From: Olivibacter domesticus
Lineage (GTDB): Bacteria; Bacteroidota; Bacteroidia; Sphingobacteriales; Sphingobacteriaceae
DNA length: 64,000 nt
Assembly: GCF_900109575.1 (NCBI RefSeq)
Contig: NZ_FOAF01000005.1
Coordinates: forward strand, 186,001 to 250,000
Direction of reading: 5' to 3'
In this document: one piece after another, positions 28,828 through 51,736 of the stretch
How the letters are laid out: each line of letters starts with the position of its first letter
Position numbering within the stretch: position 1 is the stretch's first letter
Notes under the pieces: model-generated
Database searches by the model: none
The model's input: only the letters and a program-made list of their open reading frames with translations
Told to the model about the DNA's origin: nothing
Position numbers and translations under genes: made by a program

Positions 28828-29134
28828 CACCTTCTCCGGTTTTTCTCCTCCCTAGAAAAAGTGAAAATTTAAAAAGAACGGATGCAAAAGAATGTTTGCA
28901 TCCGTTCTTTTTATCAGCCATAAAAATCCTATGTCTTCATGCATTCGCCGACTTGAAGTTTACGAATCCTCCAAAAGCAGAGCGCGCTGTAAAAAGCAAA
29001 CAATATAATTAAATGGAGTATAGAAGCGAGATTGTGTGAAATGCACGGCTACTACCTCCATGAAAATAGAATCAATCACATAACCATAACGAGTAAAGAT
29101 AAAAGGTACATGAATGATTAGGTTATTCAAGCAC
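28828..29134. other. Intergenic region after aqpZ and after the terpene operon
   Basis: 307 bases between convergent units. The first 85 hold the aqpZ terminator. The rest contains a 56-codon minus-strand frame (28960-29130, TTG start) just after the last terpene synthase. It lacks a ribosome binding site or recognisable family and is not called. Confidence 0.4.
28871..28912. terminator. Strong terminator after aqpZ
   Basis: A perfect 18-bp inverted repeat (28871-28888 with 28895-28912) with a 6-base loop (agaatg). The stem has an A-run at its left edge and a T-run at its right, so it can end transcription in both directions, including read-through from the terpene operon. Confidence 0.92.
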
Positions 29135-30112
29135 CTATGTAAGCAGTTTTTCCATCACCTGCTCAGTATCCTGATAGCGATTTGTGTCATATAACACCCA
29201 TTCGTGATTCCCGCTGATCAGTGCCTTTATTGACTTTACATAACAGCTCAATTCTTTGTTGGTTTCTGCATCAAAAAAAGGCAGCGAACGTTCCAATTCC
29301 AGCAGACGGGCTAAATCCGAATTATGAATAGCTAAGGTTTCTTTCAGTGCTTCCGTTAAAGACAACTGCCGCTCCTTCATCAGTATGATGACCATGTTCT
29401 CCGCACCTTCTTTATCAAGCTCTTTGCCGAAAGAGTGGATATCATTCGCCCAACTAGCGATCCTGATAGCCAATAAAAGCATTTGCCGAATCACATCAAG
29501 TTTATATATATAAAAGGATAAATGAAATTCGGTACCCAAAGACAGCAGGCTACAGCAGACGTTCCCTCCTGAAAAATAAGGTCTCATTTGTATATAGTTT
29601 TCGAGGTTTAAGCCCTTGTTTGCTTTAATCAGTTTGGCCTCCAGTTGCCAAGCTTTAAGCATTTCTAGCATTTCCTTTACAAACCACTGTTGCCATTCAA
29701 CTCCTCTATGCTGCCTGATTCTATACCATAAGTCGCTGAAACATGCTCCAAAACCGTCTTCATCAGTCATTAGTAGCATTTTATTATGAACAAGAATATC
29801 CACCACATGATGCTTCATCCTCTCCAATGTCTTGTTATTCTCCTCCTCGTTTGCTTCAGCAATTAAATCATCCGCAATAAAAAATAGGGTTGTCCAGCAG
29901 CCCACAAGGAAAAACCCCTCTTTATCAGCAAAGGGAAAGGTTCTAGCCGTCCACCAGATATATTTTTCTTCATGATATCGCTGAATAGATTCTTCTGTGG
30001 GAAGTAAGCCGAAGCTGCTAATCCATTTAAATATATCATGATGAGCATCGTGCACATAAGACGAAATACCAAAAGAGAAAGGGTACTGAATTTGTTGAAA
30101 GATCTTTTTCAT
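29135..30112 (-). CDS. Class I terpene synthase (first of two)
   Basis: 325 residues from the Met at 30112 (MKKIFQQIQY); the longer frame to 30163 has no family support. Bacterial class I terpene cyclase motifs are complete: the Asp-rich motif DDLIAE at 81-86, the diphosphate-sensing Arg177 (exactly 46 residues before the NSE triad), the NSE motif NDIHSFGKE at 223-231, and the RY pair at 312-313. Such soluble enzymes ionise a linear C10-C20 diphosphate and cyclise it. Last gene of the operon. The product cannot be predicted by eye; a sesqui- or diterpene is likely given the upstream synthase. Confidence 0.92.
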   Translation of the reverse strand: MKKIFQQIQYPFSFGISSYVHDAHHDIFKWISSFGLLPTEESIQRYHEEKYIWWTARTFPFADKEGFFLVGCWTTLFFIADDLIAEANEEENNKTLERMKHHVVDILVHNKMLLMTDEDGFGACFSDLWYRIRQHRGVEWQQWFVKEMLEMLKAWQLEAKLIKANKGLNLENYIQMRPYFSGGNVCCSLLSLGTEFHLSFYIYKLDVIRQMLLLAIRIASWANDIHSFGKELDKEGAENMVIILMKERQLSLTEALKETLAIHNSDLARLLELERSLPFFDAETNKELSCYVKSIKALISGNHEWVLYDTNRYQDTEQVMEKLLT

Positions 30113-30186
30113 TTTATTTGTTTCCTTTAATGCCAACCACTTTTTAAACTTTACAAACGTCAAAAATTTGCTAAAACATACCCGAT

Positions 30187-31128
30187 TTACGTATACTCCC
30201 TATACCGTTTAGTCGTCTTATACCAAGAAAGATGTCCTTGCAAGAACACTTTCAAATAGGTTACATACAATTGTATCCCCTTATTCATGGCGCCGAAATC
30301 AGGCAATCGGTCACTCAGGCTAATAAATTGTGCGAGATCCAGATCATGTATTTCTAAAGCTTGTATTTTAGCCTCTTCCGCTGAGCATTGCTGCTCGTGT
30401 TGAATAACGGAAATAAGATTCATCGCTTCGTGATCATGTCGCTCTTTTTCATAGGAGAAAAAATCGTTTGACCAAGCGGCCATACGAGTAACCAATCGCC
30501 GGAGTTGCTGTAAAGAAACATCTCTATATACATCGTCTGACAGCATAACGCCAGTTGCTATCTCCATCAAATCGAGTAAAGGATGTACTAAAACAATTTG
30601 TTCTCTAAGCAGTACGTATTCTTGGAGCGTTGGATATTCTATAATGGATCTATAGCTATAATCTGTGCTATCTTTTACCAAGCTTTCAAAATACTTATCA
30701 TTGCTTTCAATAAAACGACTCATCCACTCAGGTGTTGTGTAAGGTAATAGCTCATTCACGAATAGTTGTAGCTGCTGAAATACCGGAGCTTCCTTGCGTG
30801 TCACCTTATCTCCCTTTAAGATGGCCGCGGCTCGATTAGCTACGATTTGTATTTCTTTATGGGGCAATTGTCCATAATAGTCGTCTACCACAAAGGCATA
30901 CGTTATATACCTTGCAATCGGGCAAAGCAATTCCCAGCTTACCGTAGGATAAAATCGGGCAGTGACATCCCCAAACAAGCCTTTTTTTAACTTTTGCCTT
31001 AAAGGCTGAGGGACATTATCGTATTCATCTATCCACTGCGACACCTGGCGTTCAATAGCCTCAAGATGGCCATTAACCAGGTCAGGAAAAGGATAAGACA
31101 AGAGTGGCATTGCTTGTTCAGCATTCAT
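30187..31128 (-). CDS. Class I terpene synthase (second of two)
   Basis: A 313-residue protein with all class I cyclase motifs: DDYYG with Asp82-Asp83, sensor Arg175 (again 46 before the triad), NSE motif NDFFSYEKE at 221-229, and RY at 308-309. It is only distantly related to the downstream synthase beyond these motifs, so the pair is not a recent duplication and probably makes different products or acts in sequence. Same operon, 74 bases upstream of the other synthase's start. Confidence 0.92.
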   Translation of the reverse strand: MNAEQAMPLLSYPFPDLVNGHLEAIERQVSQWIDEYDNVPQPLRQKLKKGLFGDVTARFYPTVSWELLCPIARYITYAFVVDDYYGQLPHKEIQIVANRAAAILKGDKVTRKEAPVFQQLQLFVNELLPYTTPEWMSRFIESNDKYFESLVKDSTDYSYRSIIEYPTLQEYVLLREQIVLVHPLLDLMEIATGVMLSDDVYRDVSLQQLRRLVTRMAAWSNDFFSYEKERHDHEAMNLISVIQHEQQCSAEEAKIQALEIHDLDLAQFISLSDRLPDFGAMNKGIQLYVTYLKVFLQGHLSWYKTTKRYREYT

Positions 31129-31174
31129 GAGATTTGAAATTGACAGTTAAAAAAATTTACTTCTAATACCGCTC

Positions 31175-32086
31175 TCACCATCGTATTACACCAATTAGAA
31201 ATATTAATAAACAAAACAGATAAAGAAAAGACGTATAACTCTTATGATCGTCGCTTGCTGTTCTGAACTTCAAAATTCGATAGGCAATAAACCAATTAAA
31301 TAGTAGGATCAATATAAAAAGTATGTTTAGCACACTACTGCTGATCAGTCGCTCGATTGGGATGTTGGTAGCAAACAGCAGAAGGATGATTAAGGGAGAA
31401 AGCACAAGAAAAAAAAGTGCCAAGACAATTCTAGCATTCCTATCTCCAATAGCTAGGGGTAATGTCTTTCTTCCGACAAGCTGATCACCGGCCTGATCGC
31501 GCATGTCCTGTATATGAAAAGCGAACCCTGACCAAATAGACAAGACAATAGCATATTGATATATTGAAGCATCTAATGGTTGTATGATCTGCCATTGGGA
31601 GCAGAACAATGCAAAAACACCCATGGTCATAAATACCAGATTTTTAGCCCCAAGAAAAATATGCCAACGCATTCGATCGGTGAAGAAAGTTACCAGTTGC
31701 CATAGAACAGCGAAATACAATATATTCAGCTGATGGGCCAATAAGACCAATAATATATTGGCAAAAACCCCTCTGCTATAAGTACCTGGAATGGTAACTA
31801 AGTTTGAAGGAAGAGGGCGCCAAGGCTTATTCCTACGATCTTCTTCTATCGATAAAAGCTGACTGGATAAGCAGACCGTATAAAGGAACAAAAAACTATA
31901 GCTTAAAGAGTACAGAAAATATAGCGGAAGAATACTGAGAGAAGCCCCACTAACTATCCACGAAGCAAACAGCGTGAGCGCACCGGGGACAAAAACTGCA
32001 AACAGATCCGACTTAATAAATAAATACGTCAGATTAAACTCTTTTAACAATTTGGAAGAAATCATGGTGGATGTTTCGTGAGACAT
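31175..32086 (-). CDS. UbiA-superfamily membrane protein (prenyltransferase or membrane terpene cyclase)
   Basis: A 303-residue protein with about eight membrane helices. The second Asp motif is complete: DMRDQAGD (Asp194, Asp197, Asp201). The first is degenerate: SQLLSIEEDRRNKPWRPLPS (75-94) keeps only Asp83 of the usual NDxxDxxxD, though the trailing NKPxRP is kept. UbiA enzymes bind prenyl diphosphate through Mg at these motifs. Altered first motifs occur in UbiA-type terpene cyclases, so transfer to an aromatic or cyclisation are both possible. Placed between ispH and the two terpene synthases in one operon. Confidence 0.8.
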   Translation of the reverse strand: MSHETSTMISSKLLKEFNLTYLFIKSDLFAVFVPGALTLFASWIVSGASLSILPLYFLYSLSYSFLFLYTVCLSSQLLSIEEDRRNKPWRPLPSNLVTIPGTYSRGVFANILLVLLAHQLNILYFAVLWQLVTFFTDRMRWHIFLGAKNLVFMTMGVFALFCSQWQIIQPLDASIYQYAIVLSIWSGFAFHIQDMRDQAGDQLVGRKTLPLAIGDRNARIVLALFFLVLSPLIILLLFATNIPIERLISSSVLNILFILILLFNWFIAYRILKFRTASDDHKSYTSFLYLFCLLIFLIGVIRW

Positions 32087-32104
32087 TTTATCTTATTTAA
32101 TCAT

Positions 32105-33304
32105 TCAGCTATTCAATGATAATTCATAAAAAGAAAGCAGCCTGCGTATTACATTTTCAATAAGAATATCCGGGCAGGAAGCACCGCTGGTTAAGTGCAA
32201 TGTGAGTGAGTTCGATGGCAAATAAGCATATGAAGTGGTTAGTCGATGGCGATGAATATCCCAATGTTCTATTTCTGTATCCGACAACAAACTGTCGCTA
32301 GAAGAAATAAAATAGGTAGGTAACTTAGCTTCGCATAACTCCACCAAATGAGAGGTGTTTGAACTGTTATATCCACCTACTACAATGGCCAAATCGGCAT
32401 CAAGGGATAGCATATTAATCACCGCCGTTTGATTGTCATGCGTTGCGTAGCAAAGGGTATCCCGCATATTCGCAAAATGCGCTGCTACTTGATCGTCGCT
32501 AAGGTGGTGATGCTCTTGAATCGTCCGTTGCAAAAAATCCGCTATCTGTTGTGTTTCACTGGCAAGCAAAGTTGTTTGATTTACTACACCAATCCGGTTC
32601 AGATCGCGTGTCACATCAAAGCCCTCGGAATACCTCCCTTTAAACAGCGCGTAAAAATCCGTAGGAGGCCTTCGGTTTCCGATAAAATCAGCTAACAATC
32701 TTGCCTCCCTCAAGTCTTTGATAATGATAGAGGCGGCAACACTTTTACTATGAGAGAAAGTCGCCCGAGTTTCTTCATGATTAGGTTTTCCATGTACAAT
32801 AACCGTATAACCCTTATCAGCAATCTGCGAAACCCTGGTCCACACCTTTTCTACAAAAGGGCATTTACTCCGGTAATAAATCTGCTCGATTCCTTTTTCC
32901 TTTAAAATACGCTCTATCTCCAGCGTGGTACCAAAAGCAGGAATGATCACTACATCAGCCGCTGTGATATCCTCCCAGGAGATCAGCTGATTTCCGAGGG
33001 TATCCATAATAAACCGGACACCATTTTCCAAAAGCGACTGGTTTACATATTGGTTGTGGATGATCTCACTTAACAGATAAATCTGTTTATCTGGATTATC
33101 CTGAATAGCCGCATAAGCAGTTTCGATGGCATTCTCTACCCCATAACAGAAGCCGAAGTGACGGGCCAAGTGAATTTTAACCTTCCCGAAATCAAGAATA
33201 GTGGGATTAAAGTCTCTCTTCAGATGGTCGTCCTCTTGTCTGCTTTTTTTGATGGCACTTATTGTCTCACTTTTATATACTGTAGGGATATCAAAGGCTT
33301 TCAT
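32105..33304 (-). CDS. ispH: 4-hydroxy-3-methylbut-2-enyl diphosphate reductase, long form
   Basis: A 399-residue IspH, the last enzyme of the MEP pathway, making IPP and DMAPP with an iron-sulfur cluster. Cluster Cys are C53 (FGFCYGVENAI), C148 (YRSKCPFVEKVW) and C285 (DTLCYATHDNQ). Substrate-contact segments HNQYVNQ, NHEET and GGYNSSNTSHL are present. At about 400 residues it is like the cyanobacterial and plant type; common bacterial forms have about 280-310. Its start overlaps the dxs stop by 14 bases, showing tight coupling. Probably a pathway-dedicated extra copy, which the window alone cannot prove. Confidence 0.93.
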   Translation of the reverse strand: MKAFDIPTVYKSETISAIKKSRQEDDHLKRDFNPTILDFGKVKIHLARHFGFCYGVENAIETAYAAIQDNPDKQIYLLSEIIHNQYVNQSLLENGVRFIMDTLGNQLISWEDITAADVVIIPAFGTTLEIERILKEKGIEQIYYRSKCPFVEKVWTRVSQIADKGYTVIVHGKPNHEETRATFSHSKSVAASIIIKDLREARLLADFIGNRRPPTDFYALFKGRYSEGFDVTRDLNRIGVVNQTTLLASETQQIADFLQRTIQEHHHLSDDQVAAHFANMRDTLCYATHDNQTAVINMLSLDADLAIVVGGYNSSNTSHLVELCEAKLPTYFISSSDSLLSDTEIEHWDIHRHRLTTSYAYLPSNSLTLHLTSGASCPDILIENVIRRLLSFYELSLNS

Positions 33305-35237
33305 GTTTTACCAGTTTTTGTGTTAGTACCAGATCTTGCAGCATTTCTTTTGCCGCTGTTATAATCCCAATTTTGTCAAAACCACATTCCCGATGCAACT
33401 CGTTTACTTTACCATGCTCAACAATACGGTCCGGAACACCCAGTATCCGTACATGCGCATGGTATTGTTTCGCTGCCATAAACTCGAGTACAGCACTACC
33501 TAATCCACCAATAACACAACCATCTTCCACGGTAATAATGTGCTGGTAGTTTTCGAAAACATAATGCAGGAGTTTTTCATCAATCGGCTTTACAAAGCGC
33601 ATGTCAAAAAGGGCCGCGCTAAGCCCTTCCTCCTCTAGTTCACTACAGGCTTCCAAAGCAAAATTGCCGGGATGCCCAAAGGAAAGAATGGCGATATCTC
33701 TCCCCTCCCGAATTTGTCTTCCCGTTCCCACCTTTATTTTCTCAAAAGGTGTTTTCCAGTTCGGCATCACACCCTGCCCTCTGGGATACCTAATCATAAA
33801 GGGTTGCTCCAAACCTGGAAGCTGTGCCGTATACATTAGGTTCCTTAGTTCGGACTCGTTCATCGGCGAGCTAATGACCAAACCAGGCAGGCAGCGCGAG
33901 TAGGCGATATCATAGATACCGTGATGGGTAGCCCCGTCTTCGCCTACCAAACCACCCCTATCCAAGCAAAAAATAACCGGTAGTTGCTGCAACACTACGT
34001 CATGCACCAGCTGATCGTAACCCCGCTGCATAAATGAAGAATAGATATTGCAGAATGCTGTCATACCCTGCGTGGCAAGGCCCGCGGCTAAGGTTACAGC
34101 ATGCTGTTCACAGATCCCTACATCAAATGTGCGCTTAGGCATCTTCTCCATCATAAACTTTAGAGAAGAGCCTGATAACATAGCAGGCGTAATCCCAACG
34201 ATCTTGTCATTCCGTTCTGCCAACTCAATAATACTATGCCCAAAAACATCCTGATATTTGGGAGCTTGCGGCGTATCGTTCGTCGCTTTATGTATCTTGC
34301 CGGTCACTTTATCAAAGAGCCCTGGAAAATGCCATAATGTTTTTTCCTGTTCTGCAGGCGCATAACCCTTACCCTTGGTGGTCACCACATGCAATAATTT
34401 AGGACCAGGAATATTGCGCATATCCCGTAATGTTTCGGCCAAGTTCAATACATCATGCCCATCCACCGGACCAAAATAGCGTAAATTCAATGCTTCAAAA
34501 AAGTTCGCATGTTCTGAGAACATGCTTTTAATGCCCGACTTAGTTCTGTGCAGTAATTCTTTAGAACGCTCGCCAACCAGTGGTAATTTATGAATCGTTT
34601 TTCCTACGTTTTTACGAAGGCTATTATACGTTTTCGACAGCGCTAAGTGCGTTAAATATTCTTTTAATGCCCCTACATTCTGATCAATTGACATGCAATT
34701 ATCATTGAGAATGACGATCAGATTGGTATCCGTTGCACCGGCATGATTCAGTGCTTCAAAAGCCATCCCTGCAGTCATCGCACCATCACCGATTACGGCT
34801 ATATGCTGCTTATCATGCTCACCCCTATGTTTAGCAGCAATGGCCATTCCCAATGCTGCAGAGATCGAAGTAGAAGAGTGGCCGGTACCGAAAGCATCAT
34901 ATTCGCTTTCGCTTCGACGAGGAAAACCACTAATCCCTTTATATTTTCTGTTGCTAGAGAAAAAATCCCGTCTTCCGGTCAATATCTTATGCCCATAGGC
35001 CTGGTGTCCTACATCCCAAACCAATTGGTCGTAAGGCGTGTTCATCACATAATGCAAAGCAGCTGTCAGCTCCACCGTCCCCAAGCTCGCCCCAAAATGG
35101 CCGCCATGCTGGCTGACGGTCTCTACTAGAAAGGCCCTCAGTTCATCGCATAATTGCGGTAATTGAGCAGGTTTCAGCTTCTTTAGATCGAGGGGATTAT
35201 CTATCTGATCAAGTAGGGATAATTTAGTTTTTCTCAT
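33291..35237 (-). CDS. dxs: 1-deoxy-D-xylulose-5-phosphate synthase
   Basis: 648 residues from the Met at 35237 (MRKTKLSLLDQIDNP); the frame stays open further upstream but those codons overlap little-protein-like sequence. The thiamine-diphosphate enzyme joins pyruvate and glyceraldehyde 3-phosphate, the committed step of the MEP pathway. Motifs: HYVMNTPYDQLVWDVGHQAY, GDGAMTAGMAFEALNHAG, LNDNCMSIDQNVGAL, and the catalytic FDVGICEQHAVTLAAGLA. Length is normal. It lies between the prenyl synthase and ispH. Confidence 0.96.
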   Translation of the reverse strand: MRKTKLSLLDQIDNPLDLKKLKPAQLPQLCDELRAFLVETVSQHGGHFGASLGTVELTAALHYVMNTPYDQLVWDVGHQAYGHKILTGRRDFFSSNRKYKGISGFPRRSESEYDAFGTGHSSTSISAALGMAIAAKHRGEHDKQHIAVIGDGAMTAGMAFEALNHAGATDTNLIVILNDNCMSIDQNVGALKEYLTHLALSKTYNSLRKNVGKTIHKLPLVGERSKELLHRTKSGIKSMFSEHANFFEALNLRYFGPVDGHDVLNLAETLRDMRNIPGPKLLHVVTTKGKGYAPAEQEKTLWHFPGLFDKVTGKIHKATNDTPQAPKYQDVFGHSIIELAERNDKIVGITPAMLSGSSLKFMMEKMPKRTFDVGICEQHAVTLAAGLATQGMTAFCNIYSSFMQRGYDQLVHDVVLQQLPVIFCLDRGGLVGEDGATHHGIYDIAYSRCLPGLVISSPMNESELRNLMYTAQLPGLEQPFMIRYPRGQGVMPNWKTPFEKIKVGTGRQIREGRDIAILSFGHPGNFALEACSELEEEGLSAALFDMRFVKPIDEKLLHYVFENYQHIITVEDGCVIGGLGSAVLEFMAAKQYHAHVRILGVPDRIVEHGKVNELHRECGFDKIGIITAAKEMLQDLVLTQKLVKHESL

Positions 35238-35289
35238 GGCAGAAAATTGTTTAACGGTAAATATGAAAAACAGGGGGTTGGTGTCTTTT

Positions 35290-36261
35290 TTAAGACTGGC
35301 GTACCAATAGTGAGCTGGCCAGTTCCAGCAGTTTCTCCTTTTTGAAAACGGGCACATCTATCTCTTCCAATTTATCAAAGGCGATAGCTGTGTAAGACCT
35401 AATCGCTTCTACGGCCCACAAATCCACTTCAAGTATTTTATAACAGTCCATAACAGCTCGGATTTTATCTTCGCCCTTACGTTGGAAGGCCTCTTTTAGT
35501 CTTATTAGTTGTTCTGACGTTGCTTGTTCAAATGCCTTGACCAACAATGCTGTTTTTTTGTTTTCCAGAATATCGCCTCCTACTTGTTTACCGGTATGTG
35601 CGCTAGCGCCAAAAGTATCCAAATAATCATCTTGTATCTGAAAGGCGATTCCTATGTTCTTAGCAAATTCGTATAGACCGACTTGCTGCCCTTCATCTGC
35701 ACCGCCCATCATTGCGCCGCACTGAGCAGCGCCGCCTAATAGCACAGACGTTTTCAGTGTAATCATTTCAAGATAATCGGCATAATTTACCGTTTCCATT
35801 TCCATACCCTCCATATCAATGTCCAACTGCTGCCCTTCACATACTAGCCGTGCCGTATCCGCAAACAGCTCGATGATTTGCGTTCGGTAGATACTTTCAA
35901 TTTGATTGAGTAATGCATAACATTGGATGAGCAAGGTGTCTCCAGCAAGTATAGCCGTACCTTCATTGTATTTTATATGTAAGGTTGGCCGTCCTCTACG
36001 TAAGGGAGAACGGTCCATAATATCGTCGTGAATGAGCGTAAAATTGTGAAAGAGATCAAAAGCATAAGCAACAATATATGTATCAGCATGTATGTTATCA
36101 AATAACTCGTTCACCATCAAACACATTGCCGGTCGGACTCTTTTGCCCGGAAGGTCCAAAAAATAATTAATCGACCCATATAGATTTTTGGGGGAAGTCG
36201 GAAACACAAACGTATCTCGCTGTTTCTGGTAAAGCTTGCAGATTTCTGAAAAGGAATGCAT
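35290..36261 (-). CDS. Isoprenyl diphosphate synthase, probable GGPP or FPP synthase
   Basis: A 323-residue trans-prenyl elongase. First Asp-rich motif DDIMD (79-83) with RRGRPT; second motif DDYLD (211-215). The residue five before the first motif is Phe74, and the motif has no two-residue insertion. In the usual scheme an aromatic at -5 without insertion marks archaeal-type GGPP synthases, so C20 is the better guess, with C15 possible. First gene of the terpene operon, 52 bases before the dxs start. Confidence 0.9.
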   Translation of the reverse strand: MHSFSEICKLYQKQRDTFVFPTSPKNLYGSINYFLDLPGKRVRPAMCLMVNELFDNIHADTYIVAYAFDLFHNFTLIHDDIMDRSPLRRGRPTLHIKYNEGTAILAGDTLLIQCYALLNQIESIYRTQIIELFADTARLVCEGQQLDIDMEGMEMETVNYADYLEMITLKTSVLLGGAAQCGAMMGGADEGQQVGLYEFAKNIGIAFQIQDDYLDTFGASAHTGKQVGGDILENKKTALLVKAFEQATSEQLIRLKEAFQRKGEDKIRAVMDCYKILEVDLWAVEAIRSYTAIAFDKLEEIDVPVFKKEKLLELASSLLVRQS

Positions 36262-36294
36262 AATATGGGGATTATGGTGAACGTAAAAAATATA

Positions 36295-36317
36295 ATTTAT
36301 CCTTTACGAGGATAAAT
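36295..36317 (-). promoter_or_regulatory. Hairpin plus T-run in the leader of the terpene operon
   Basis: Perfect 9-bp stem (atttatcct / aggataaat) with a 5-base loop (ttacg), 34-56 bases before the first ATG. On the minus strand it is followed by TATATTTTTT. It has the shape of a weak intrinsic terminator inside the leader, so attenuation is possible. Confidence 0.4.
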
Positions 36318-36371
36318 ATGGATCTGTATGAATTTATAATTTCTGCTTTGACTAATTTAGCAAGTTCGAGA

Positions 36372-36403
36372 TAAGTGTTTCTTGTTCAAATTGTTCAGTT
36401 TAT
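36372..36403. repeat. 32-bp direct repeat, left copy
   Basis: Identical over 32 bases (begins taagtgtttcttgttcaaat) to 45842-45873, same orientation. It lies outside the 3' end of the utilisation locus and 111 bases upstream of the prenyl synthase start. Weaker similarity extends about 20 bases to the left of both copies. Confidence 0.85.
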
Positions 36404-36489
36404 TGAACTTAAATTTTTTCTAGTATGGCGAAGTAAAAATTTGGTAAAGATTACAAACGTATTCAAGAGAAAACTTAAAATGACACGAA

Positions 36490-36528
36490 GAGTTTTGCCG
36501 CGTTGTATATTCCAACACAGCAAAACTC
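36490..36528 (-). terminator. Stem-loop after the GH5 gene
   Basis: Arms gagttttgc (36490-36498) and gcaaaactc (36520-36528), extended after three unpaired bases by gttg/caac. It lies 58 bases past the GH5 stop at the end of the sus operon. On the minus strand T-rich sequence follows some bases later, so it is a fair terminator. Confidence 0.6.
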
Positions 36529-36585
36529 AAATTAGGGATAGGTTGTTTTGCTTAATTCCGTGTATCAATCACGGGCGGTATTCAC

Positions 36586-38571
36586 TTATTGCATAGCTAT
36601 TAGTTTAATATAGTCCTGACTAAGTTCATATCCTGAGCTACTGGCATTTTTACCAGTTACCTCAAATTTAAAATTTCGGGCACCATCCCAAAGGGTGACA
36701 TTACTGGCAATCAATAACTCTTTATATTCCACATTAGCACTATATTGGTCGAATATAGCACCCTTTGCGACTCCAGCTTCATATAACTGACACTGCCCAC
36801 GATTAGGTCCAGCCAGATAACGTAGGTAAACATTATAATTCGTTTGACCGCCGGTGTGGTTGATGGTATATGTTATAAAATCTCCCGCGCCATCGGCGGC
36901 AAGCCTAACCCACGCGCCACCACTCGCATTGAGATCGTTAACAGGAGCATAAGAAGCACCATTTGACCACTTGCTTAAATTTTCGGCTTCATTGGGGGTA
37001 CCACTGCCCGAAACAAATTCTACCCAATTTACATTGTAACCAATGCCTTCAAATTCTAATCGAAGTATTTTATTAGTTCCCGCATTGATGTTCACATTCT
37101 CCAATGTAAAGCTCTGATAGGTGTCCCATCCGCCTGTATTAGTTGGCGTAATTGTTCCCAAGGTTACACCATCCAACTTAATAGTGACACTCCTACCCGG
37201 CGTTGCATCACCACAGGCTACACGAAGGTTAACATTATAGGTACCTGAATTGATATTTGCTATCGTATATTCCAACCATTCGCCCGGATTTATATAGCCT
37301 ATTGTATGGCCCCCGCCGTCATCCGTGGTAGTACCAATGTCAACAGGCGTATTACGATACACACCACCTTGATTATCATAAGTAGTTTCGTAAAAGGAAA
37401 CGTCCTGTCCTCCATTATCGAAATTTTCTGCTTGTATTTTTCCTGGAATAGTTTGCGTGGCAAAAGCCGTTTGTGGGCCAGGGATAAAACCGCCTGCCTG
37501 ATTATGGTTTTGCTTTTCGAAAAGCCAGTCGCGAATGAATTTACCCTGATTTTCTCCGCTCATCAGATTCCAGTTCCAATCAAACATCTGTGGCTTCCAG
37601 TAGTTATCAAAGATATAATTCGCCCAACCAATATGAGGATGATTATCCATATAAGTACGGAACTGCTTACCCCATCCCCCAGAAGTGCCATAAGTAACCC
37701 CGTCCGAATAATTAGGATCAGCGTTCCAGCCAAATTCGGTGATCACAATGGGAATACTGTTGGCTGCATTGCCAAATTTTGAATCAAGACTGGAGGTACT
37801 AGCCGGCTGGTTGGGATAGATATGATAAACATAGGCCATATTATGATCATCAAAAGGATTCGCAGCCGCCTCATTCACTCTAGTGCTCCATTGTGGTCCG
37901 CCCATCAGAATTAAGTTGTTCGGCGCAACGGCACGAATGGTATCAATTACCGGTTGTATAAAATCCTTCCAGGTAGTCCAAGTATCGGGATTAATAGGCT
38001 CGTTATAAACTTCAAAAATCACCTGCGGATTATTTGCATAACGAGGTGCAACGTAACTCCAAAAATCCAGCACTTTTGATTGAGGTGTTCCTCCCGTTCC
38101 GTAGTTCGATACGAGGTGAAGATCCACAATAACGTACTGGCCAAGTGAAATCGCTTGCTGTACAAAGGGATCTATATGATTAGCAAAAGCCGCTACCGGA
38201 TCACTGTATGCCTGGTGCACCCCGATCCGGACGACGCGTGAGAACCATCCTTTTGAAGTATCGGCCTGCAGAGCGAGCAACTCACTTATGGGCTTTGTAT
38301 TACAGGTTCCACATTCGTCGTTACTTTCATTTGGAAGAAGGGAGAAACCTCTAAGGGTAACTACATTCCCTGCCTCGTCTTTGATTTGGTTACCTTCTAC
38401 ATGTAGCCATGGTAATGTTGCATTATTAACGCCATTGGCAAGCATCTTTTTGTTTGCGTCGTTCATTAATTTTACATCTTCTTCTGGAAGCCTTTTGCAA
38501 GCCGATATCATAAACACACATGCTAACATAAGCATGAGAAGACTTTTTTCAGTGTACTTGAGTAATTTCAT
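36586..38571 (-). CDS. Lipoprotein GH5 endoglucanase-type glycosidase with CBM6 modules
   Basis: 661 residues from the Met at 38571 (MKLLKYTEKS). A lipoprotein signal ends at Cys25 (MISAC). The GH5 (alpha/beta)8 domain covers about 50-350, with acid/base Glu191 in VIFEVYNEPIN and nucleophile Glu279 in VITEFGW. A CBM6 domain follows (about 376-535; KIQAENFDNGGQD at its start), then a second CBM-like beta-sandwich (about 540-658; NEAENLSKWSNGA). It should cut a beta-1,4-linked glucan or mannan at the cell surface. Last gene of the sus operon. Exact GH5 subfamily not assigned. Confidence 0.92.
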   Translation of the reverse strand: MKLLKYTEKSLLMLMLACVFMISACKRLPEEDVKLMNDANKKMLANGVNNATLPWLHVEGNQIKDEAGNVVTLRGFSLLPNESNDECGTCNTKPISELLALQADTSKGWFSRVVRIGVHQAYSDPVAAFANHIDPFVQQAISLGQYVIVDLHLVSNYGTGGTPQSKVLDFWSYVAPRYANNPQVIFEVYNEPINPDTWTTWKDFIQPVIDTIRAVAPNNLILMGGPQWSTRVNEAAANPFDDHNMAYVYHIYPNQPASTSSLDSKFGNAANSIPIVITEFGWNADPNYSDGVTYGTSGGWGKQFRTYMDNHPHIGWANYIFDNYWKPQMFDWNWNLMSGENQGKFIRDWLFEKQNHNQAGGFIPGPQTAFATQTIPGKIQAENFDNGGQDVSFYETTYDNQGGVYRNTPVDIGTTTDDGGGHTIGYINPGEWLEYTIANINSGTYNVNLRVACGDATPGRSVTIKLDGVTLGTITPTNTGGWDTYQSFTLENVNINAGTNKILRLEFEGIGYNVNWVEFVSGSGTPNEAENLSKWSNGASYAPVNDLNASGGAWVRLAADGAGDFITYTINHTGGQTNYNVYLRYLAGPNRGQCQLYEAGVAKGAIFDQYSANVEYKELLIASNVTLWDGARNFKFEVTGKNASSSGYELSQDYIKLIAMQ

Positions 38572-38657
38572 TTTTAATCTAATTTTTGGTTTATAATTAT
38601 ATTTGATATTGGTTTTATTTAACATACTGCCACTCGTCAACCAAACATCCATGCCAC

Positions 38658-40232
38658 TTAATAGCCGGGATTTTGACTAAGATTCGTATTGATGTCAATC
38701 TCCTTTTGCGGTATAGGCAATAAACCTTGGTTCGCCTGCAAGCGAGCTATCGGCACATCTGGATGACTTTCTTGAATAAAATGCAGCACATATTGCATAC
38801 CGGCCCTTCGCAAGGTCCACCACCAAGACATTTCAGCGGCAAATTCATGACGCCTTTCTGTCATAATGATATCGAAGGCTTCTTCTTTTGAAGATCCATA
38901 AACATCGGGCAGCGTGTTGGTAAACTCATCCGCCCTATCTCTTATTTCGTTCGCGATATGCAAAGCACCGACTATATTGTCATCTGCCATTAACAGAACT
39001 TCTGCATAATTAAGTAATACTTCCGCATATCGCATTAAGATGATATTATTCTCACCGGCAACGTGGGCACAGCCTCCACCACATACATCAGGCAATCTCC
39101 AATACTTCACCACGCCATATCCAGTTATCCCCCATGGATGTGCCGTGGTGCCATACGTATTAATTGGATGGCCATTTTCGTCCTTCACGCTTGTTCTTTC
39201 GGAAATATCAATATTCGGACTGGGGTGCCCTTCCCCGGGCCTGATGATCGAAGCTCTCCTTCTTAAATCGCCCTCTTCGAATGAGTCATAAAGCGATTTT
39301 GTACTGTTGTGTGAACCCCATCCTCCAGCTTCCGTAGGCATAGTAAGCACTTGCATCCAAGAGAGATGATCCTCACGATTCCATGATTGGTTAGCTTCTG
39401 CACGATGTTGTATTTCAAATATGGATTCTACACCATTGCGATTTTCCGGTTCATGAATCTGAAAATAGTTCCGCTCGAGTTGGTAAACGCCCTGATCAAT
39501 AATCTGCTTTAAACTTAGTTTAGCATCGTTCCATTTAGCCGGATTATAATTGGCCAACCACATTTGCGTCTGCCCAAGATAAGCCAGTGCAGCACCCTTC
39601 GTAGCCCTTCCTACATTTTCTGCACCATATGTCCACGGCAATACCTCAACAGCATCTTTCAGATCAGTTTCGATACTTTCAAATGTTTCTTCCTCGGTAT
39701 TTCTTGGAATTTTCATTTCTCCACCCGCCAATTGCTCTTCCAATATGAGCGGTACACCCCCAAAATTAACAGCCAAATAATAGTAATAGATCGCTCTTAA
39801 AAATTTAGCCTCTCCGATCAATCTATTGGTCAATTCTCCGTCAATAATACCTTTTTCGGCCATCTCTTGTATTTTGGGTATCGTTGCATTCGCACGGGCA
39901 ACCCCTTTGTAACAATCTCTCCAAAAACCAAACACGATATTAAACCCCGTAGGCACCTCATATAATGCATAAAATTCGTCAGCGCCCTGATTTCTTATAT
40001 CTTGCGAAAAATAATTGGCATGGTAATAAATCCCTTTGGATAGAAAATCGTCTTCACCCGTTCCCCCATGGAAGATATCATAAATCCCGGCAACAGCCGC
40101 TAAAGCATCTTCAGGCTTATTAAATAATACATCAGGCGTTGAGCCATCTAATTTTTGTTGAGACAAGAAATCCTCTCCACATCGCACGAAAGGAAAAGAG
40201 ATCAATATTATTATTTTAACTAGTTTTTTCAT
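38658..40232 (-). CDS. SusD/RagB-type glycan-binding lipoprotein
   Basis: A 524-residue outer-membrane lipoprotein (FPFVRC, Cys about residue 18, then GEDFLSQQ). The N-terminal SusD segment LSQQKLDGSTPDVLF and TPR-like helices (LIGEAKFLRAIYYYYLAVNF GG) are typical, and it ends with the RagB C-terminal region (IMTERRHEFAAEMSWWWTLR). It covers the SusC channel and binds the glycan. It starts 32 bases after the SusC stop and precedes the GH5 gene. Confidence 0.94.
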   Translation of the reverse strand: MKKLVKIIILISFPFVRCGEDFLSQQKLDGSTPDVLFNKPEDALAAVAGIYDIFHGGTGEDDFLSKGIYYHANYFSQDIRNQGADEFYALYEVPTGFNIVFGFWRDCYKGVARANATIPKIQEMAEKGIIDGELTNRLIGEAKFLRAIYYYYLAVNFGGVPLILEEQLAGGEMKIPRNTEEETFESIETDLKDAVEVLPWTYGAENVGRATKGAALAYLGQTQMWLANYNPAKWNDAKLSLKQIIDQGVYQLERNYFQIHEPENRNGVESIFEIQHRAEANQSWNREDHLSWMQVLTMPTEAGGWGSHNSTKSLYDSFEEGDLRRRASIIRPGEGHPSPNIDISERTSVKDENGHPINTYGTTAHPWGITGYGVVKYWRLPDVCGGGCAHVAGENNIILMRYAEVLLNYAEVLLMADDNIVGALHIANEIRDRADEFTNTLPDVYGSSKEEAFDIIMTERRHEFAAEMSWWWTLRRAGMQYVLHFIQESHPDVPIARLQANQGLLPIPQKEIDINTNLSQNPGY

Positions 40233-40264
40233 TATATCGATTTAATCCCCATGATAGGTTACCT

Positions 40265-43200
40265 TTAAAATGTTACATTAAGACCACATAAAATAATTTT
40301 CGGCAATGGATAAGAGCCTACGTCTATTCCGGTCGTTGTTATTTCATTACCGAGAGATCCGATTTCAGGATCCAGACCTGAATAGCCGGTAAATGTCAAT
40401 AAGTTTTGGCCGCTTATGTAAATACGGGCCCGCTTGATCCGAAGATTATGTGTAATATGCTGGGGTAAGGTGTAGCCAATCTGGATATTTTTCAACCTAA
40501 TAAACGAACCATCTTCAACAAAATGGTCAGAAACCCTTCCGTTTTGGTTAAAATCGTCCACGGTAGCTCTTGCCATGGTATTGGAAGTTCCTTCACCATG
40601 CCAACGATTTTGATAATAGTTTGTTGATATATTGGTAAAACCGACGCTTTTATCAAATCCGATGTTTTCCAGTACATTTTTGGAATAATTGAGGATATCA
40701 TTTCCAAACGAACCATTAAAGAATACGCTAAAATCAAAATTCTTATAACTGGCTTCAAAATTGATTCCCATAAAAGCGTCTGGGATGGGGCTACCTATAA
40801 TGGTCCTATCGAGATCATTAATTACACCATCAGGACCCGTGGGGTTTCCGTTTTCATCCAATGGTCCGGCAATATCGATAAACCGTCTATCGCCCGCAAC
40901 AGTTTGCCCAGATTGGAAAGCGTGGTTAGCTACCTCCTGTTGATTCTGAAAAATTCCATCAGTTTTCCATCCATAGAATGCGCCAATCTCTCCACCCTCC
41001 TTCGTGATAGTAAAATTATCAAATTGGCCAAATGCCGGAATAGCCAACGTGCTGGCATTAAATATGGCCCCTCCCCCTCCCAAGCTCATTACTTTATTAT
41101 TTACGGTGGTTACATTGGCGTTTACGCTCCATTGAAAATCGCCGTCCACATCCTGATAGCCTAGCGTGACCTCAAAGCCATTATTTTGGATAGTTCCAGC
41201 ATTACGGAACGCAGAAGTTGTCCCTGAAGTACTAGGTAGCGGTATATTGAGTAGAATATCTTCTGATTTTCTATTATAATAATCTGCTACTAATGTTATC
41301 CGGCCGTCAAATAGGGACGCATCGAATCCGATATCACTTTGCGTTGACGTTTCCCATTTCAAATCTGGATTGGATAGTCCAGTGGGTGCAATACCCAAAT
41401 TAACGGTTGGATCATTGCCGAAGATATAAGAATTATTGATAGCGCTCCAGGTAACCAGATACGAGAATGGATTGATATCTTGATTACCAGTTTGCCCCCA
41501 GCTACCTCGAATTTTAAAATCATGCAACCACTTAGCGCCCGATAAAAAGGATTCTTCGGACACCCTCCAAGCGAGGGACGCGGATGGGAAGGTACCAAAT
41601 TTATTATTAGGTCCGAAGTTAGAAGAGCCGTCCCTTCGTATAGTACCTGTTAATATATATGTATCGAGCAATTTATAATTCACTCTAGCAAAATACGAGG
41701 CGATTGATTGCGTAACTTGCGAACCGGCAGCGTTTCTGAAAATGCCATCTTGAAGGTTTCGTAATTCGTTGCTTACAAAATCAGACGCATTTCCAGACAA
41801 CCATCTGTATGTCCATTCCTGACCAGATTGACCTGCCAATAAGGTCAAGTCATGTGCCTGACCGAATTGTTTTTCATAAGTGAGTGTATTTTCTATCAAA
41901 TAATCGGTGCGTACATTTTGATATTGACTATAAATGGCAGCCGTATTCGAACTTCTTCCTCTATTATAGGAGGGAGTAAAGCTAAATCCATTGTTTTGGA
42001 TATAGTCTATACCAAGGTTAATCTTGTAAGTAAGCGCTGGTAGAATTTTCCATTCGGCAAATGTGGTATTGATGATCCTGTTTACCTTATTATCCTGATC
42101 AAAAGTCTCTATACGCGCTATAGGATTGTCCATCGTATTGGGCACAGCATCAGAAAATGGCCAATACCCATAATTACCATTTAATTTAACGCTACCATTT
42201 GTTCCGCCGGCAGTAAGTATTGGTTGCAATTCAATGATTTGTTTCAATGAACCTTCGTTAGCCGTTTCAGAATTTAACAGCTGGATCTTTTGTGATAAAG
42301 AAGCGGCCATACTTGTTCCTACCTTAACCTTCGTACCGATCCTATGATCAATATTGGCTCTTATACTATATCTTTTAAAATTGGATGCCTTTACGATGCC
42401 ATTTTGATTAAAATAACCAAATGACAGGGACGATTGTGTTTGATCATTGCCCCCTGTTAGGGACAGGTTATAGCTTTGTTGAAGTGCTTTTCTGAAAATT
42501 TCATCTTGCCAATTTATTGAGGGAAATGATCCCGGGTTTCTCCATTCGTCCAAAACCACCTCCCCTTCTGCATCTCCAACTTGCACGGCTAAGTCGGCAA
42601 ACGCTCCCGCACTTGCCATTTCATATTCGTTGGGACGTTGTTGAATGCCCCAATAGGAATCAAAATTAATAATAGTTCCACCTGCGGCCCCTCTTTTGGT
42701 AGAAACAATAACAACACCATTAGTAGCTCGCGTACCATAAATAGCTGTTGCAGAAGCATCTTTTAGTACTTCAATAGATTCCACATCGTTGGGATTAAGA
42801 TTCTGTAAAGCATTTCGCGAGGTAGGAAACCCATCAATTACATACAGCGGATCATTGTTTCCCAGCGAGCTAATACCTCTGATCCGAACCGAGACGCCCC
42901 CTCCTGGTACTCCGGAATTTTGACTTACCTGCACACCAGAAGCCAACCCCTGCAGCCCTTGATCTAGGGTAGTTACCGCTTGCTTTTCAATATCTTTCCC
43001 ATCCACGGTGGCAATAGAACCAGTAAGATCACTTCTCTTCATGGTTCCATACCCTACCACCACCACTTCGTTTAGGTTGCTCACAGATTCTTGCATAATC
43101 GCATTCACAGTAGATGAATTGTTTATAGACAGCTCTAGAAGTTCGTAACCCACAATGGTAAACACCAGCACATCTTCCCGCTCTGCTGTTACCCGATAAT

Positions 43201-43717
43201 TCCCTTCTTTATTTGTTTTAGTAACTACCGTAGTTCCCTTGACCTTTACGGTCGCCCCTTCCAACGGCATTCCCGCCTGATCGGTCACCCGACCTGTAAT
43301 CTCCCGCTGTAATTCGATTGCGTTTTTCAGTTTATCCCCATGAGGATCGACCTTCCGCTCTATCAGCACCCGGTTTTCCCGAATCTTGTAAGTAAGTTCC
43401 TGTTCATGAAAACAATAATCTAAAATAGTCTCTATGGGTGTATTAATCGAACGAAGGCTCACTGGTTTGGCCAACTTTAAGTCCTCTTCCAAGTATAGAA
43501 AATGGTACCCTGTTTGCTGACGTAACGCTGCAAATACGTCTTTCAGACTGACGTTATTAGCTTTGATTGTAGCATTTTGTGCAAATACAGAAGCCCCTGC
43601 TTGTGAAACAGTGAGCGCCAGGAGCAATAAAGTAACCTTTAACATAATAAAAAGCCTAAATAGGACACTATAATCAGCACAGATGAGGCATGCTAATTTT
43701 TTTTTATACATTTGCAT
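40265..43717 (-). CDS. SusC/RagA-type TonB receptor with N-terminal STN signalling domain
   Basis: About 1150 residues from the Met at 43717; the Met at 43711 is an alternative and the open frame beyond lacks signal-peptide character. Order: signal peptide (ends near SVFAQ), STN domain (VSLKDVFAALRQQTGYHFLY), CarboxypepD_reg domain (ITGRVTDQAGMPLEGATVKV), plug with the SusC signature (NEVVVVGYGTMKRSDLTGSI), then a barrel. STN-bearing receptors signal ligand arrival to FecR in the inner membrane, which fits the FecR and ECF sigma genes just upstream. Transports the oligosaccharide made by the GH5 enzyme. Confidence 0.95.
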   Translation of the reverse strand: MQMYKKKLACLICADYSVLFRLFIMLKVTLLLLALTVSQAGASVFAQNATIKANNVSLKDVFAALRQQTGYHFLYLEEDLKLAKPVSLRSINTPIETILDYCFHEQELTYKIRENRVLIERKVDPHGDKLKNAIELQREITGRVTDQAGMPLEGATVKVKGTTVVTKTNKEGNYRVTAEREDVLVFTIVGYELLELSINNSSTVNAIMQESVSNLNEVVVVGYGTMKRSDLTGSIATVDGKDIEKQAVTTLDQGLQGLASGVQVSQNSGVPGGGVSVRIRGISSLGNNDPLYVIDGFPTSRNALQNLNPNDVESIEVLKDASATAIYGTRATNGVVIVSTKRGAAGGTIINFDSYWGIQQRPNEYEMASAGAFADLAVQVGDAEGEVVLDEWRNPGSFPSINWQDEIFRKALQQSYNLSLTGGNDQTQSSLSFGYFNQNGIVKASNFKRYSIRANIDHRIGTKVKVGTSMAASLSQKIQLLNSETANEGSLKQIIELQPILTAGGTNGSVKLNGNYGYWPFSDAVPNTMDNPIARIETFDQDNKVNRIINTTFAEWKILPALTYKINLGIDYIQNNGFSFTPSYNRGRSSNTAAIYSQYQNVRTDYLIENTLTYEKQFGQAHDLTLLAGQSGQEWTYRWLSGNASDFVSNELRNLQDGIFRNAAGSQVTQSIASYFARVNYKLLDTYILTGTIRRDGSSNFGPNNKFGTFPSASLAWRVSEESFLSGAKWLHDFKIRGSWGQTGNQDINPFSYLVTWSAINNSYIFGNDPTVNLGIAPTGLSNPDLKWETSTQSDIGFDASLFDGRITLVADYYNRKSEDILLNIPLPSTSGTTSAFRNAGTIQNNGFEVTLGYQDVDGDFQWSVNANVTTVNNKVMSLGGGGAIFNASTLAIPAFGQFDNFTITKEGGEIGAFYGWKTDGIFQNQQEVANHAFQSGQTVAGDRRFIDIAGPLDENGNPTGPDGVINDLDRTIIGSPIPDAFMGINFEASYKNFDFSVFFNGSFGNDILNYSKNVLENIGFDKSVGFTNISTNYYQNRWHGEGTSNTMARATVDDFNQNGRVSDHFVEDGSFIRLKNIQIGYTLPQHITHNLRIKRARIYISGQNLLTFTGYSGLDPEIGSLGNEITTTGIDVGSYPLPKIILCGLNVTF

Positions 43718-43791
43718 ATCAGGTTTAACTCCATTTATTGGTTGGCAAATCAGTAAATAATTAACTTGGTTTATGGCGAGTGAATCGTCTG

Positions 43792-43816
43792 CCAGAAGTG
43801 CCGCGAACACTTCTGG
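43792..43816. terminator. Hairpin between fecR and susC-like genes
   Basis: Perfect 9-bp stem (ccagaagtg / cacttctgg) with a 7-base loop. The T-run follows it on the plus strand, the wrong side for the minus-strand operon. It may slow, process or protect the transcript between the regulator genes and the transport genes. Confidence 0.5.
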
Positions 43817-43849
43817 TTTTTTCAACACTGTCTCCTTAGTGTGTCCTTT

Positions 43850-44992
43850 TTATCGCATAATCACAACCTCCTTTCCTTTTCGTTCAAATGTGAAATTTCC
43901 CAACATACTCAGGTCAGCCAACAGCTCATCGAGCGTTGCATCCCTTGGGAATGTCCCACCAAACCGCTTTTTGGGAATAACTCCTTCTACCACAACTTGA
44001 ATGTCGTACCACCTCGCCACATTTTTCATTATCGATACAATGTCCATCTCCTCAAACACAAAGTATCCATTTTTCCAAGCCAGGGTCTGCTCAATATTGG
44101 CCTTCTGTTTAACAATTGATTGCTGGTCTGCATGCGTGACAGCTTTATATCCTGGACGAAGAGAAATCGCTTTGCCATCTTTGTTCACATTTACTCCTCC
44201 TTCTAACAAAGTGGTAGTAACCGTTTTATCTGAAGCATAAGCAGTGACATTGAAATGCGTACCTGTCACCCTAATTTGAGTATGATCGGCTGTGATTCGG
44301 AAGGGCTTGCTATGATCATGAGCCACTTCAAAATAAGCCTCTCCTTCAAGCGTTACATGGCGTTCGTTCATTCCAAAATGAACCGGATAAGTAAGTGTGC
44401 TTGCTGCATTTAGCCATACCCTCGTACCGTCAGCGAGCTTTAATTGAAATTGCTTACCATTGGGTACATGTATGACGTTGTATTTGATCTCTCGCCCCAC
44501 CTCGACTGCTCCTCCCTGATTAGTCTCATACACCATTTGTCCAGCTTCCTTTTTTAGGATAGAAAAGTCTTCTGTTTCCTGTATGACACCGGTATCCAAC
44601 GATTCTAAATTAAGTGAAGTGCCGTTAGATAGCGTCAGCGTGATCTCCTTTTGATTCGTTACCGACTCATTAATAACCAAGCGTTTATTGTTTATTTCAT
44701 CTTTAACCAGTTTTGGCCAAAACAACACCAGACCTACTATTAAGATAATTGATGCGGCCACCCCCATCAAACGGTATTTCCAACGAGCTTTCAGCTTCGT
44801 ACCCAAGCGTAAATCATCAATTCCTTGTTTAATCCGGATCCCCATTAGCTTCCGTTCTTCGTCGCTATTCCATTCCCAATCGCCCACCATGGGCTTACGC
44901 AATATCATATCTTCTAGCTTCTTTCGTTCTGCGCGCGACGCCGTACCTTCCGAGTACTTTCGTAATAAATCCCTAAATGCGGCTTTATCCAT
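43850..44992 (-). CDS. FecR-family anti-sigma factor
   Basis: A 380-residue protein. The cytosolic anti-sigma part covers about 1-75 (FRDLLRKYSEGTASRAERKK). One membrane helix is near 78-93 (VAASIILIVGLVLFW). The FecR domain follows (HVPNGKQFQLKLADGTRVWL, TLEGEAYFEVAHD), then a C-terminal DUF4974 domain (IVSIMKNVARWYDIQVVVEG). It holds the sigma factor until the STN receptor signals. It lies 159 bases downstream of the sigma gene. Confidence 0.94.
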   Translation of the reverse strand: MDKAAFRDLLRKYSEGTASRAERKKLEDMILRKPMVGDWEWNSDEERKLMGIRIKQGIDDLRLGTKLKARWKYRLMGVAASIILIVGLVLFWPKLVKDEINNKRLVINESVTNQKEITLTLSNGTSLNLESLDTGVIQETEDFSILKKEAGQMVYETNQGGAVEVGREIKYNVIHVPNGKQFQLKLADGTRVWLNAASTLTYPVHFGMNERHVTLEGEAYFEVAHDHSKPFRITADHTQIRVTGTHFNVTAYASDKTVTTTLLEGGVNVNKDGKAISLRPGYKAVTHADQQSIVKQKANIEQTLAWKNGYFVFEEMDIVSIMKNVARWYDIQVVVEGVIPKKRFGGTFPRDATLDELLADLSMLGNFTFERKGKEVVIMR

Positions 44993-45151
44993 TTGGAAAT
45001 TAATTTATAATCGGTGTTAATATAAGTAAGAGCGTATCTAGGTACTTATGGTGGTACAGGTGAATAAAAAAAAGGCAAATAAAAATTTATCACACTGATA
45101 ATCAGCTGAAAAAAATTTAGGAAGGGGATAGTTTAACAGGATTGATAGGCG

Positions 45152-49602: not shown

Positions 49603-49683
49603 TTTAATTTTCCTCGGTTGTTATAGTTATTTGTCTATAGAGTCGGCTACCATGTTAATTCTTAAGCACCGACATAAGCAGCA

Positions 49684-49720
49684 TCTATTGGGCGATATCT
49701 GTAAAAACCTCTCCAATAGA
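49684..49720 (-). terminator. Inverted repeat between VWA genes
   Basis: An 8-bp inverted repeat (tctattgg at 49684-49691, ccaataga at 49713-49720) with a 21-base loop, 27 bases after the stop of the middle VWA gene. A possible weak terminator. Confidence 0.4.
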
Positions 49721-49746
49721 TTTATACCGCAATTTAAGTGATATGA

Positions 49747-51600: not shown

Positions 51601-51736
51601 TTTTTTGTTCTTTTTACGTTAAAAATTATTGATTGTTTTATTATTAGATGATCATTCCCCTCTATAAGTCTCCTAGGCAAGCGTTCATTTACCAAAATAA
51701 AGATGGGAATTCATAATATTAAGAACTTTGGATTCA

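Follow-up and report, generated by a model that had tools for sequence, protein, structure and literature searches.

A probable self-supplied terpene operon with two class I synthases and a UbiA-fold candidate cyclase in Olivibacter domesticus

Precursor supply commonly limits terpene production. We describe here a 64,000-nucleotide stretch of the Olivibacter domesticus genome (hereafter the window; assembly GCF_900109575.1, contig NZ_FOAF01000005.1, positions 186,001 to 250,000), in which genes for a prenyl diphosphate synthase (PPS) and for Dxs and IspH of the methylerythritol phosphate (MEP) pathway are followed, in one six-gene operon, by genes for a UbiA-fold membrane protein and two class I terpene synthases, TS2 and TS1. 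By analogy of gene content, the sodorifen (sod) cluster of Serratia plymuthica can be regarded as its nearest precedent; a cyclase is accompanied there by the idi gene sodA and the dxs gene sodB, and the product is a volatile hydrocarbon (PMC6366047). Both are small clusters with a terpene cyclase beside supply genes, but the sod cluster has idi, a C-methyltransferase and one cyclase, whereas the operon has neither idi nor a methyltransferase and instead carries ispH, PPS and two or three cyclases, and its relatives, unlike the sod cluster, add dxr and ispG. A SodC-like methyltransferase beside a SodD-like cyclase was not found among the six operon genes.

A second group of described enzymes is formed by the UbiA-type terpene synthases EriG, Fma-TC, Tps1A/Tps2A, StlTC and StsC (PMC9835599, PMC10301674, PMC7693059), of which StlTC (PMC10301674) and StsC (PMC7693059) are bacterial and come from Streptomyces. 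The operon protein, likened to them by motifs and fold, shares with them the UbiA fold, the motif II QDxxDxxxD and a motif I that has no middle Asp, but this motif I reads SxxxSxxxD instead of Nxxx(G/A)xxxD, and unlike the characterised enzymes it sits with class I synthases and MEP genes. Terpene synthases of Chitinophagaceae, the family of its nearest UbiA relatives, belong to the same enzyme class as the soluble synthases, and the available text describing them returned no mention of a gene cluster, dxs or the MEP pathway on a term search (PMC12723471); the same kind of search in the available text of PMC12181424, PMC9814573 and PMC7192455 gave no PPS-dxs-ispH terpene operon. Searches of an open-access library, assessed on titles and the first lines of abstracts, turned up neither such an operon nor a UbiA-type cyclase from Bacteroidota; the original prediction likewise knew of no published pathway made up of exactly these genes. 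Self-supply in a terpene cluster is a known idea, and what appear to be new within the literature searched are a family of operons that have as many as four additional MEP genes, and the set of cyclases of mixed fold.

Judging from sequence comparison, we consider it fairly likely that the locus is a dedicated terpene operon with its own precursor supply, two class I synthases and a probable UbiA-fold cyclase. A self-supplying terpene operon had been predicted originally and is still the best reading, with extra MEP genes tied to terpene synthases in all six genomes in which such an operon was found.

Supply genes and their recurrence in the family

Six open reading frames, all on the minus strand, occupy positions 29135 to 36261, each with its expected Pfam family over the curated cut-off, and both Dxs and IspH exceed the cut-offs of their equivalog models (Table 1). 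They lie as predicted, head to tail with short gaps or overlap, once two starts are corrected. Dxs can be aligned to its orthologue in the sister genome of the same genus (G001) from residue 38 onwards, M41 being the first Met after that point, and the coding sequence was accordingly ended at 35237 and not at 35357; likewise, the orthologue alignment of TS1 begins at M18, so that TS1 was given this ATG start and not one at 30163. After these corrections the gaps are 52 nt (PPS to dxs), 18 nt (ispH to UbiA), 46 nt (UbiA to TS2) and 74 nt (TS2 to TS1), and dxs and ispH overlap by 14 nt. Dxs carries the GDGA, NDN and GICEQH motifs, and IspH retains all three of its cysteine motifs.

The supply genes are extra copies in this genome. 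Checks for second copies (dxs in O. domesticus and the sister genome, ispH and PPS in O. domesticus) found another dxs at C3:454610, 62% identical to the operon copy, and a short-form ispH at C3:542604, and three PPS genes in all. Operon Dxs is 86% identical to the operon copy of the sister genome, and operon PPS is 62–75% identical to the PPS of five other operons and 43% to the nearer of the two other PPS of its own genome.

When 399 evenly drawn genomes of the family were searched with operon IspH at E <= 1e-60, the long type of IspH was found in six of them, belonging to three genera, and all six loci proved to be PPS-(ispG)-dxs-ispH rows with one to six terpene synthases, dxr being present in three and ispG in two (Table 1). 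Pfam was used to check ispG and dxr in the operons of G675 and G773 and dxr in that of G472, and each of these genes is additional to a copy elsewhere in its genome. In five of the six operons dxs and ispH overlap by exactly 14 nt. Chance clustering was rejected since the core recurs in five genomes besides this one, and by gene order PPS-dxs-ispH forms a module that some members of the family have in common.

In midpoint-rooted trees, the Dxs proteins of the six operons cluster together (100/100) to the exclusion of 19 other Dxs proteins, and the same holds for the six IspH proteins of the operons (100/100) against 25 others (those of 29 non-operon loci that passed a motif filter), with the same grouping by genus in both trees; these groupings are consistent with one origin of the core. 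The operon IspH proteins are joined in the tree by seven from a single other family, f36 (90/93), a hint that there was import from that family. Long-type IspH is rare in this family, and as a class-wide marker of terpene operons it was rejected, as 169 of 395 sampled class genomes carry one (E <= 1e-60). In the class search, the 29 top-ranking IspH loci other than self were examined, and no such dxs, PPS, UbiA or terpene synthase gene was seen in flanks of about 1.5 kb per side (two shorter); operons with lower-ranking IspH may still occur outside the family.

Table 1. Features of the operon in window coordinates, and gene rows of the six operons found in the family
Feature	Position	Strand	Details
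PPS, short-chain (C15-C20 class) prenyl diphosphate synthase	35290..36261	-	PF00348 (polyprenyl_synt) 237 bits; DDIMD first motif; first gene
dxs, second copy	33291..35237	-	TIGR00204 772 bits, over cut-off; DXP_synthase_N 394 bits; GDGA, NDN, GICEQH motifs
ispH (lytB), long type, second copy	32105..33304	-	PRK13371 460 bits and TIGR00216, both over cut-off; LYTB 221 bits; CYGV, SKCPFV, SGASCP
UbiA-fold membrane protein, probable membrane terpene cyclase	31175..32086	-	PF01040 56 bits (cut-off 34.2)
UbiA motif I, residues 75-83, SQLLSIEED	31838..31864	-	NxxxGxxED in 12 of 14 clade rows
UbiA motif II, residues 193-201, QDMRDQAGD	31484..31510	-	fits QDxxDxxxD (signature from PMC9835599)
TS2, class I terpene synthase	30187..31128	-	PF19086 123 bits; DDYYGQ, NDFFSYEKE, RY
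TS1, class I terpene synthase	29135..30112	-	PF19086 123 bits; DDLIAE, NDIHSFGKE, RY
Terminator-like hairpin, 19 pairs and T-rich tail	28870..28913	-	3' of TS1, before convergent aquaporin gene
Intergenic region, 324 nt, presumed operon promoter region	36262..36585	-	presumed from position only
G000 (Olivibacter domesticus) gene row			PPS-dxs-ispH-UbiA-TS2-TS1
G001 (same genus, sister genome) gene row			PPS-dxs-ispH-TS
G472 gene row			PPS-dxs-ispH-TS-dxr-TS x5
G675 gene row			PPS-ispG-dxs-ispH-dxr-TS x2
G729 gene row			PPS-dxs-ispH-TS x2
G773 gene row			PPS-ispG-dxs-ispH-dxr-TS x3

Soluble terpene synthases

TS1 and TS2 match PF19086 equally well, far above its cut-off of 23.7 bits, and both have an Arg upstream of the Asn/Ser/Glu (NSE) motif and a C-terminal RY pair. 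The original prediction of complete catalytic motifs in both cyclases holds for TS1, whose first motif and NSE motif fit the class I consensus; in TS2 the NSE motif is standard, but the first motif lacks the third acid. Across the operons all 16 synthases retain DD and RY, and the NSE motif is standard in 12 and reads NExxSxxxD in the other four, which constitute one orthologous group. TS1 is 64% identical to the sole terpene synthase of the G001 operon, and its non-synonymous divergence from this orthologue (dN = 0.22, with synonymous divergence, dS, too large to compute) is consistent with purifying selection.

In a tree of 25 synthases (16 from operons, 6 solitary and 3 near Chitinophaga UbiA genes), several lineages occur within the operons: one set of orthologues is common to G472, G675, G729 and G773, and TS1 with the G001 enzyme makes another. 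TS4 of G472 shares 89% identity with a solitary O. domesticus enzyme (L035; dN = 0.049, dS = 0.41), showing that the same enzyme can stand inside and outside such operons. TS2 is placed with moderate support (85/80) beside a solitary synthase from O. domesticus, one on a long branch, and 13 of the 16 operon synthases, comprising all those of genera g4 and g14, fall into one 15-row group (92/91) together with two solitary ones. From these relationships, the turnover of synthases seems to consist in part of duplications and losses among related enzymes, with clear replacement mainly between genus g1 and the others.

Three further solitary synthases of O. domesticus lie on contig C10 (L034, L035 and L036), of which L036 has EDTYS in place of the DD motif; a contig scan with TS1 alone as the query found no relative. 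Scores against NCBIfam equivalogs were all far under cut-off, and among solved structures the closest to both TS1 and TS2, (+)-T-muurolol synthase, is too distant (about 100 bits) for their products to be predicted from it. For none of the 16 operon synthases of the six genomes, nor for the UbiA-fold candidate cyclase, was a known product found.

UbiA-fold protein

The predicted structure of the operon UbiA protein (pLDDT 91.3) matches the UbiA-family enzymes 6m31, 7bpu and 4tq4 with TM scores of 0.64–0.67, and the fold by itself does not separate a cyclase from a transferase. With the single protein as the query, 41 of 395 class genomes gave a match at E <= 0.001, the best other match (E = 2.5e-7) being 26% identical, and a 12-row profile found it in one of the 399 family genomes (E <= 1e-15). 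A wide scan with a three-row alignment over one genome per species (84,980 species) gave 16 loci, namely two in Chitinophaga barathri, one each in C. sp. CF118, C. tropicalis, Plesiocystis, Spirulina, Brevibacterium and Rhodococcus, three in Nocardia and five in Latescibacterota/Gemmatimonadota, and there were two plasmid matches, from Streptomyces and Bacillus.

In the resulting tree the operon protein falls with those from the four Chitinophaga loci (99/99) within a 14-row clade (94/99, the program's mark being 95) that stands apart from 19 other UbiA-family proteins and from three Latescibacterota/Gemmatimonadota rows. The outgroups were 15 of the 28 class-search loci L050–L077 and four other UbiA-family proteins of this genome, the latter with long branches and partly misaligned motifs; L093 and L094 were left out as near copies of other Latescibacterota/Gemmatimonadota loci, and since the proteins of L079 and L089 are identical, the clade holds 13 distinct proteins. 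Long branches meet at its base and four actinobacterial rows differ in composition, and the cyclase-like placement is relative to bacterial proteins with like motifs. All 14 rows have DxxDxxxD in motif II, preceded by Q in ten and E in four, and motif I is NxxxGxxxD in 12 rows, NxxxSxxxD in the Chitinophaga protein L081 and SxxxSxxxD in the operon protein alone.

In a survey of the neighbours of the 13 other rows, with Pfam applied to part of them, PPS was found near UbiA in L078, L079, L087, L089 and L090 (with a weak match in L086), terpene synthases in L080 and L083 and P450 in L084–L087, and none of these was recognised near UbiA in L081, L082 and L088. The P450 gene of the Nocardia and Plesiocystis loci L084, L085, L086 and L087 lies upstream of UbiA on the same strand, and these may possibly be cyclase–P450 pairs. 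In three of the four Chitinophaga loci, a gene for a hybrid histidine kinase with HisKA, HATPase and receiver domains is found directly upstream of UbiA on the same strand (L080:8022-9848, L081:8094-9869 and L082:8109-9881, with gaps of 98, 95 and 14 nt, respectively); these kinases have 4–6 hydrophobic helices in their N-terminal part, their sensor parts are 37–44% identical, and they may sense a terpenoid or control its making. Between UbiA and a terpene synthase gene (L080:12953-13912) of C. barathri there is a second hybrid kinase (L080:11000-12853), with a sensor part that shows no match to the one just described, and this synthase has DELFN and DDLFLVSRS and no RY, so that it may be inactive for want of the standard catalytic motifs. 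The identical UbiA proteins, each with an adjoining PPS, come from a Bacillus subtilis plasmid record (L079:5761-6681) and a Brevibacterium oceani contig (L089:2988-3908), indicating either a recent transfer or a mislabelled record.

Surroundings, proposed function and alternatives

A hairpin scan gave 15 sites against 6.7 expected, the site after TS1 being by far the longest, and a scan for promoters of the sigma-70 type gave 20 sites against 20.5 in shuffles, showing no excess. Around the operon, where four neighbours were typed by Pfam and the others from sequence only, neither a P450 nor a methyltransferase gene was recognised, as had been predicted; the closest genes that could be identified are GH5/CBM on the upstream side and aquaporin and DUF2784 on the downstream side, none of them a tailoring enzyme. 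A locus of the polysaccharide-use type lies directly upstream on the same strand (36586-45739), with a GH5 cellulase and CBM6 identified by Pfam and SusD-, SusC-, FecR- and sigma-factor-like genes recognised from their sequence only. Farther on, three tandem paralogues (48211-53709) each start with a sequence that we take to be von Willebrand A-like from a DTSGSM-like motif; one matches the PA-IL lectin family (47.8 bits), and the other two matched no Pfam family at E 0.001. Within the window no Rfam family reached its gathering score, and tRNA-mediated insertion was ruled out as no tRNA is present. The genome (6.78 Mb in 23 contigs) is recorded as 100% complete and 4.17% contaminated; the operon contig also holds the sole ispG of the genome and the downstream DUF2784 gene is common to the sister genome, so that contamination is an unlikely source of the locus.

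Transcribed as a single unit, the operon would act as follows. The second Dxs and the second, long-type IspH would add capacity at the entry and exit of the MEP pathway, and PPS would build from C5 units a diphosphate of C15 or C20 length, which TS1, TS2 and probably the membrane UbiA-fold cyclase would turn into several terpene hydrocarbons or alcohols. As IspH yields both isopentenyl and dimethylallyl diphosphate, an operon without idi would be workable. The cyclase part behind the core varies by genome, and here a UbiA–TS2 pair follows ispH and precedes TS1, the synthase that the sister genome also has.

A wider proposal, which we hold more tentatively, is that the core PPS-dxs-ispH was assembled once, can grow to cover four of the seven MEP steps when ispG and dxr are added, and carries one to six synthases that come and go by exchange, duplication and loss, joined here by a membrane cyclase of unrelated fold and with an altered motif I that draws on the same pool. 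It is made less probable by a control on the synthase tree, in which the label 'in an operon' needs 4 changes where shuffles need 7.6 (a value as low came up in 3 of 500), so that synthases of the operons tend to be related to one another and the scope for cyclase exchange is limited.

This control is one of several points that speak against the proposed function and its extension. Among the six operons found, the set with UbiA occurs in O. domesticus only; the same six-gene order in relatives, which the original prediction named as support, was not found, and what is conserved is the supply core. The DDYYGQ motif of TS2 has two Asp without the third acid. The residues before the first Asp motif of PPS are nearly the same as in its 43% homologue, so that they do not reveal its chain length. 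In the sod cluster, knock-outs showed that dxs is not crucial for emission (PMC6366047), and the supply genes of the operon may accordingly tune rather than enable production. As for UbiA, Ser replaces both the Asn kept in the 13 other rows and the Gly of 12 of the 14 rows; the likeness in the motifs is partly by construction, since the peptide patterns of the scan cover parts of motif I (from Gly, not Asn) and of motif II; and the presence of PPS, a terpene synthase or P450 in 10 of the 13 other rows has no control set of ordinary UbiA loci.

With these points counted, the operon UbiA is in our estimate moderately likely to be an active membrane cyclase. It is described here as cyclase-like and not as a proven member of the UbiA-type synthases, as SQLLSIEED departs from their motif I, and the two Ser leave its activity uncertain. 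The foremost alternative, which we regard as unlikely, is that the gene is a recent arrival whose product has been inactivated through this altered motif, and that the operon is a two-cyclase system; the Ser at positions 75 and 79 and the occurrence in one of 399 family genomes would fit this, but the reading frame is intact with a confident model (pLDDT 91), D83 of motif I and D194, D197 and D201 of motif II are all retained, and the Chitinophaga relative L081 likewise has Ser at the Gly position.

Marginally less credible is the alternative that UbiA is a true intramembrane prenyltransferase acting on an acceptor made elsewhere, giving a meroterpenoid or a prenylated lipid or quinone, while TS1 and TS2 make separate terpenes. 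The superfamily fold, the nearest solved structures, which are prenyltransferases, and the 12 NCBIfam matches, all to prenyltransferase models and all under cut-off, agree with it, whereas motif I lacks the middle Asp of the canonical NDxxDxxxD, QDMRDQAGD has the form seen in cyclases, the protein stands apart from the sampled UbiA-family proteins (on long branches), its relatives mostly adjoin PPS, terpene synthase or P450 genes (a count without a control), and no acceptor gene is in the operon. On motifs and tree, an ordinary MenA/UbiA-type enzyme was rejected as the first choice, and UbiA is probably a third, membrane cyclase rather than a prenyltransferase. Of the possible products named in the original prediction, a hydrocarbon or an alcohol agrees with this reading, and a prenylated compound becomes less likely. 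That the operon serves a general need for carotenoid, quinone or membrane lipid with the terpene synthases as passengers is very improbable, for although Dxs and IspH are general supply enzymes and operon PPS resembles another genomic PPS, every one of the six loci has terpene synthases in its row, with all other genes being PPS, MEP genes or, here, UbiA, and this genome has other dxs, ispH and PPS copies.

As a dedicated terpene operon, the locus would be a natural version of the combinations of supply genes and cyclase that engineers build by hand, and operons of this kind supply MEP genes in ready-made sets. A sharply defined question also comes within reach of experiment, namely whether a UbiA-type cyclase can function with Ser instead of the Asn of motif I. 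If the wider proposal of a once-assembled core with changing cyclases is true, soluble class I and UbiA-type cyclases would share one dedicated precursor pool in this organism.

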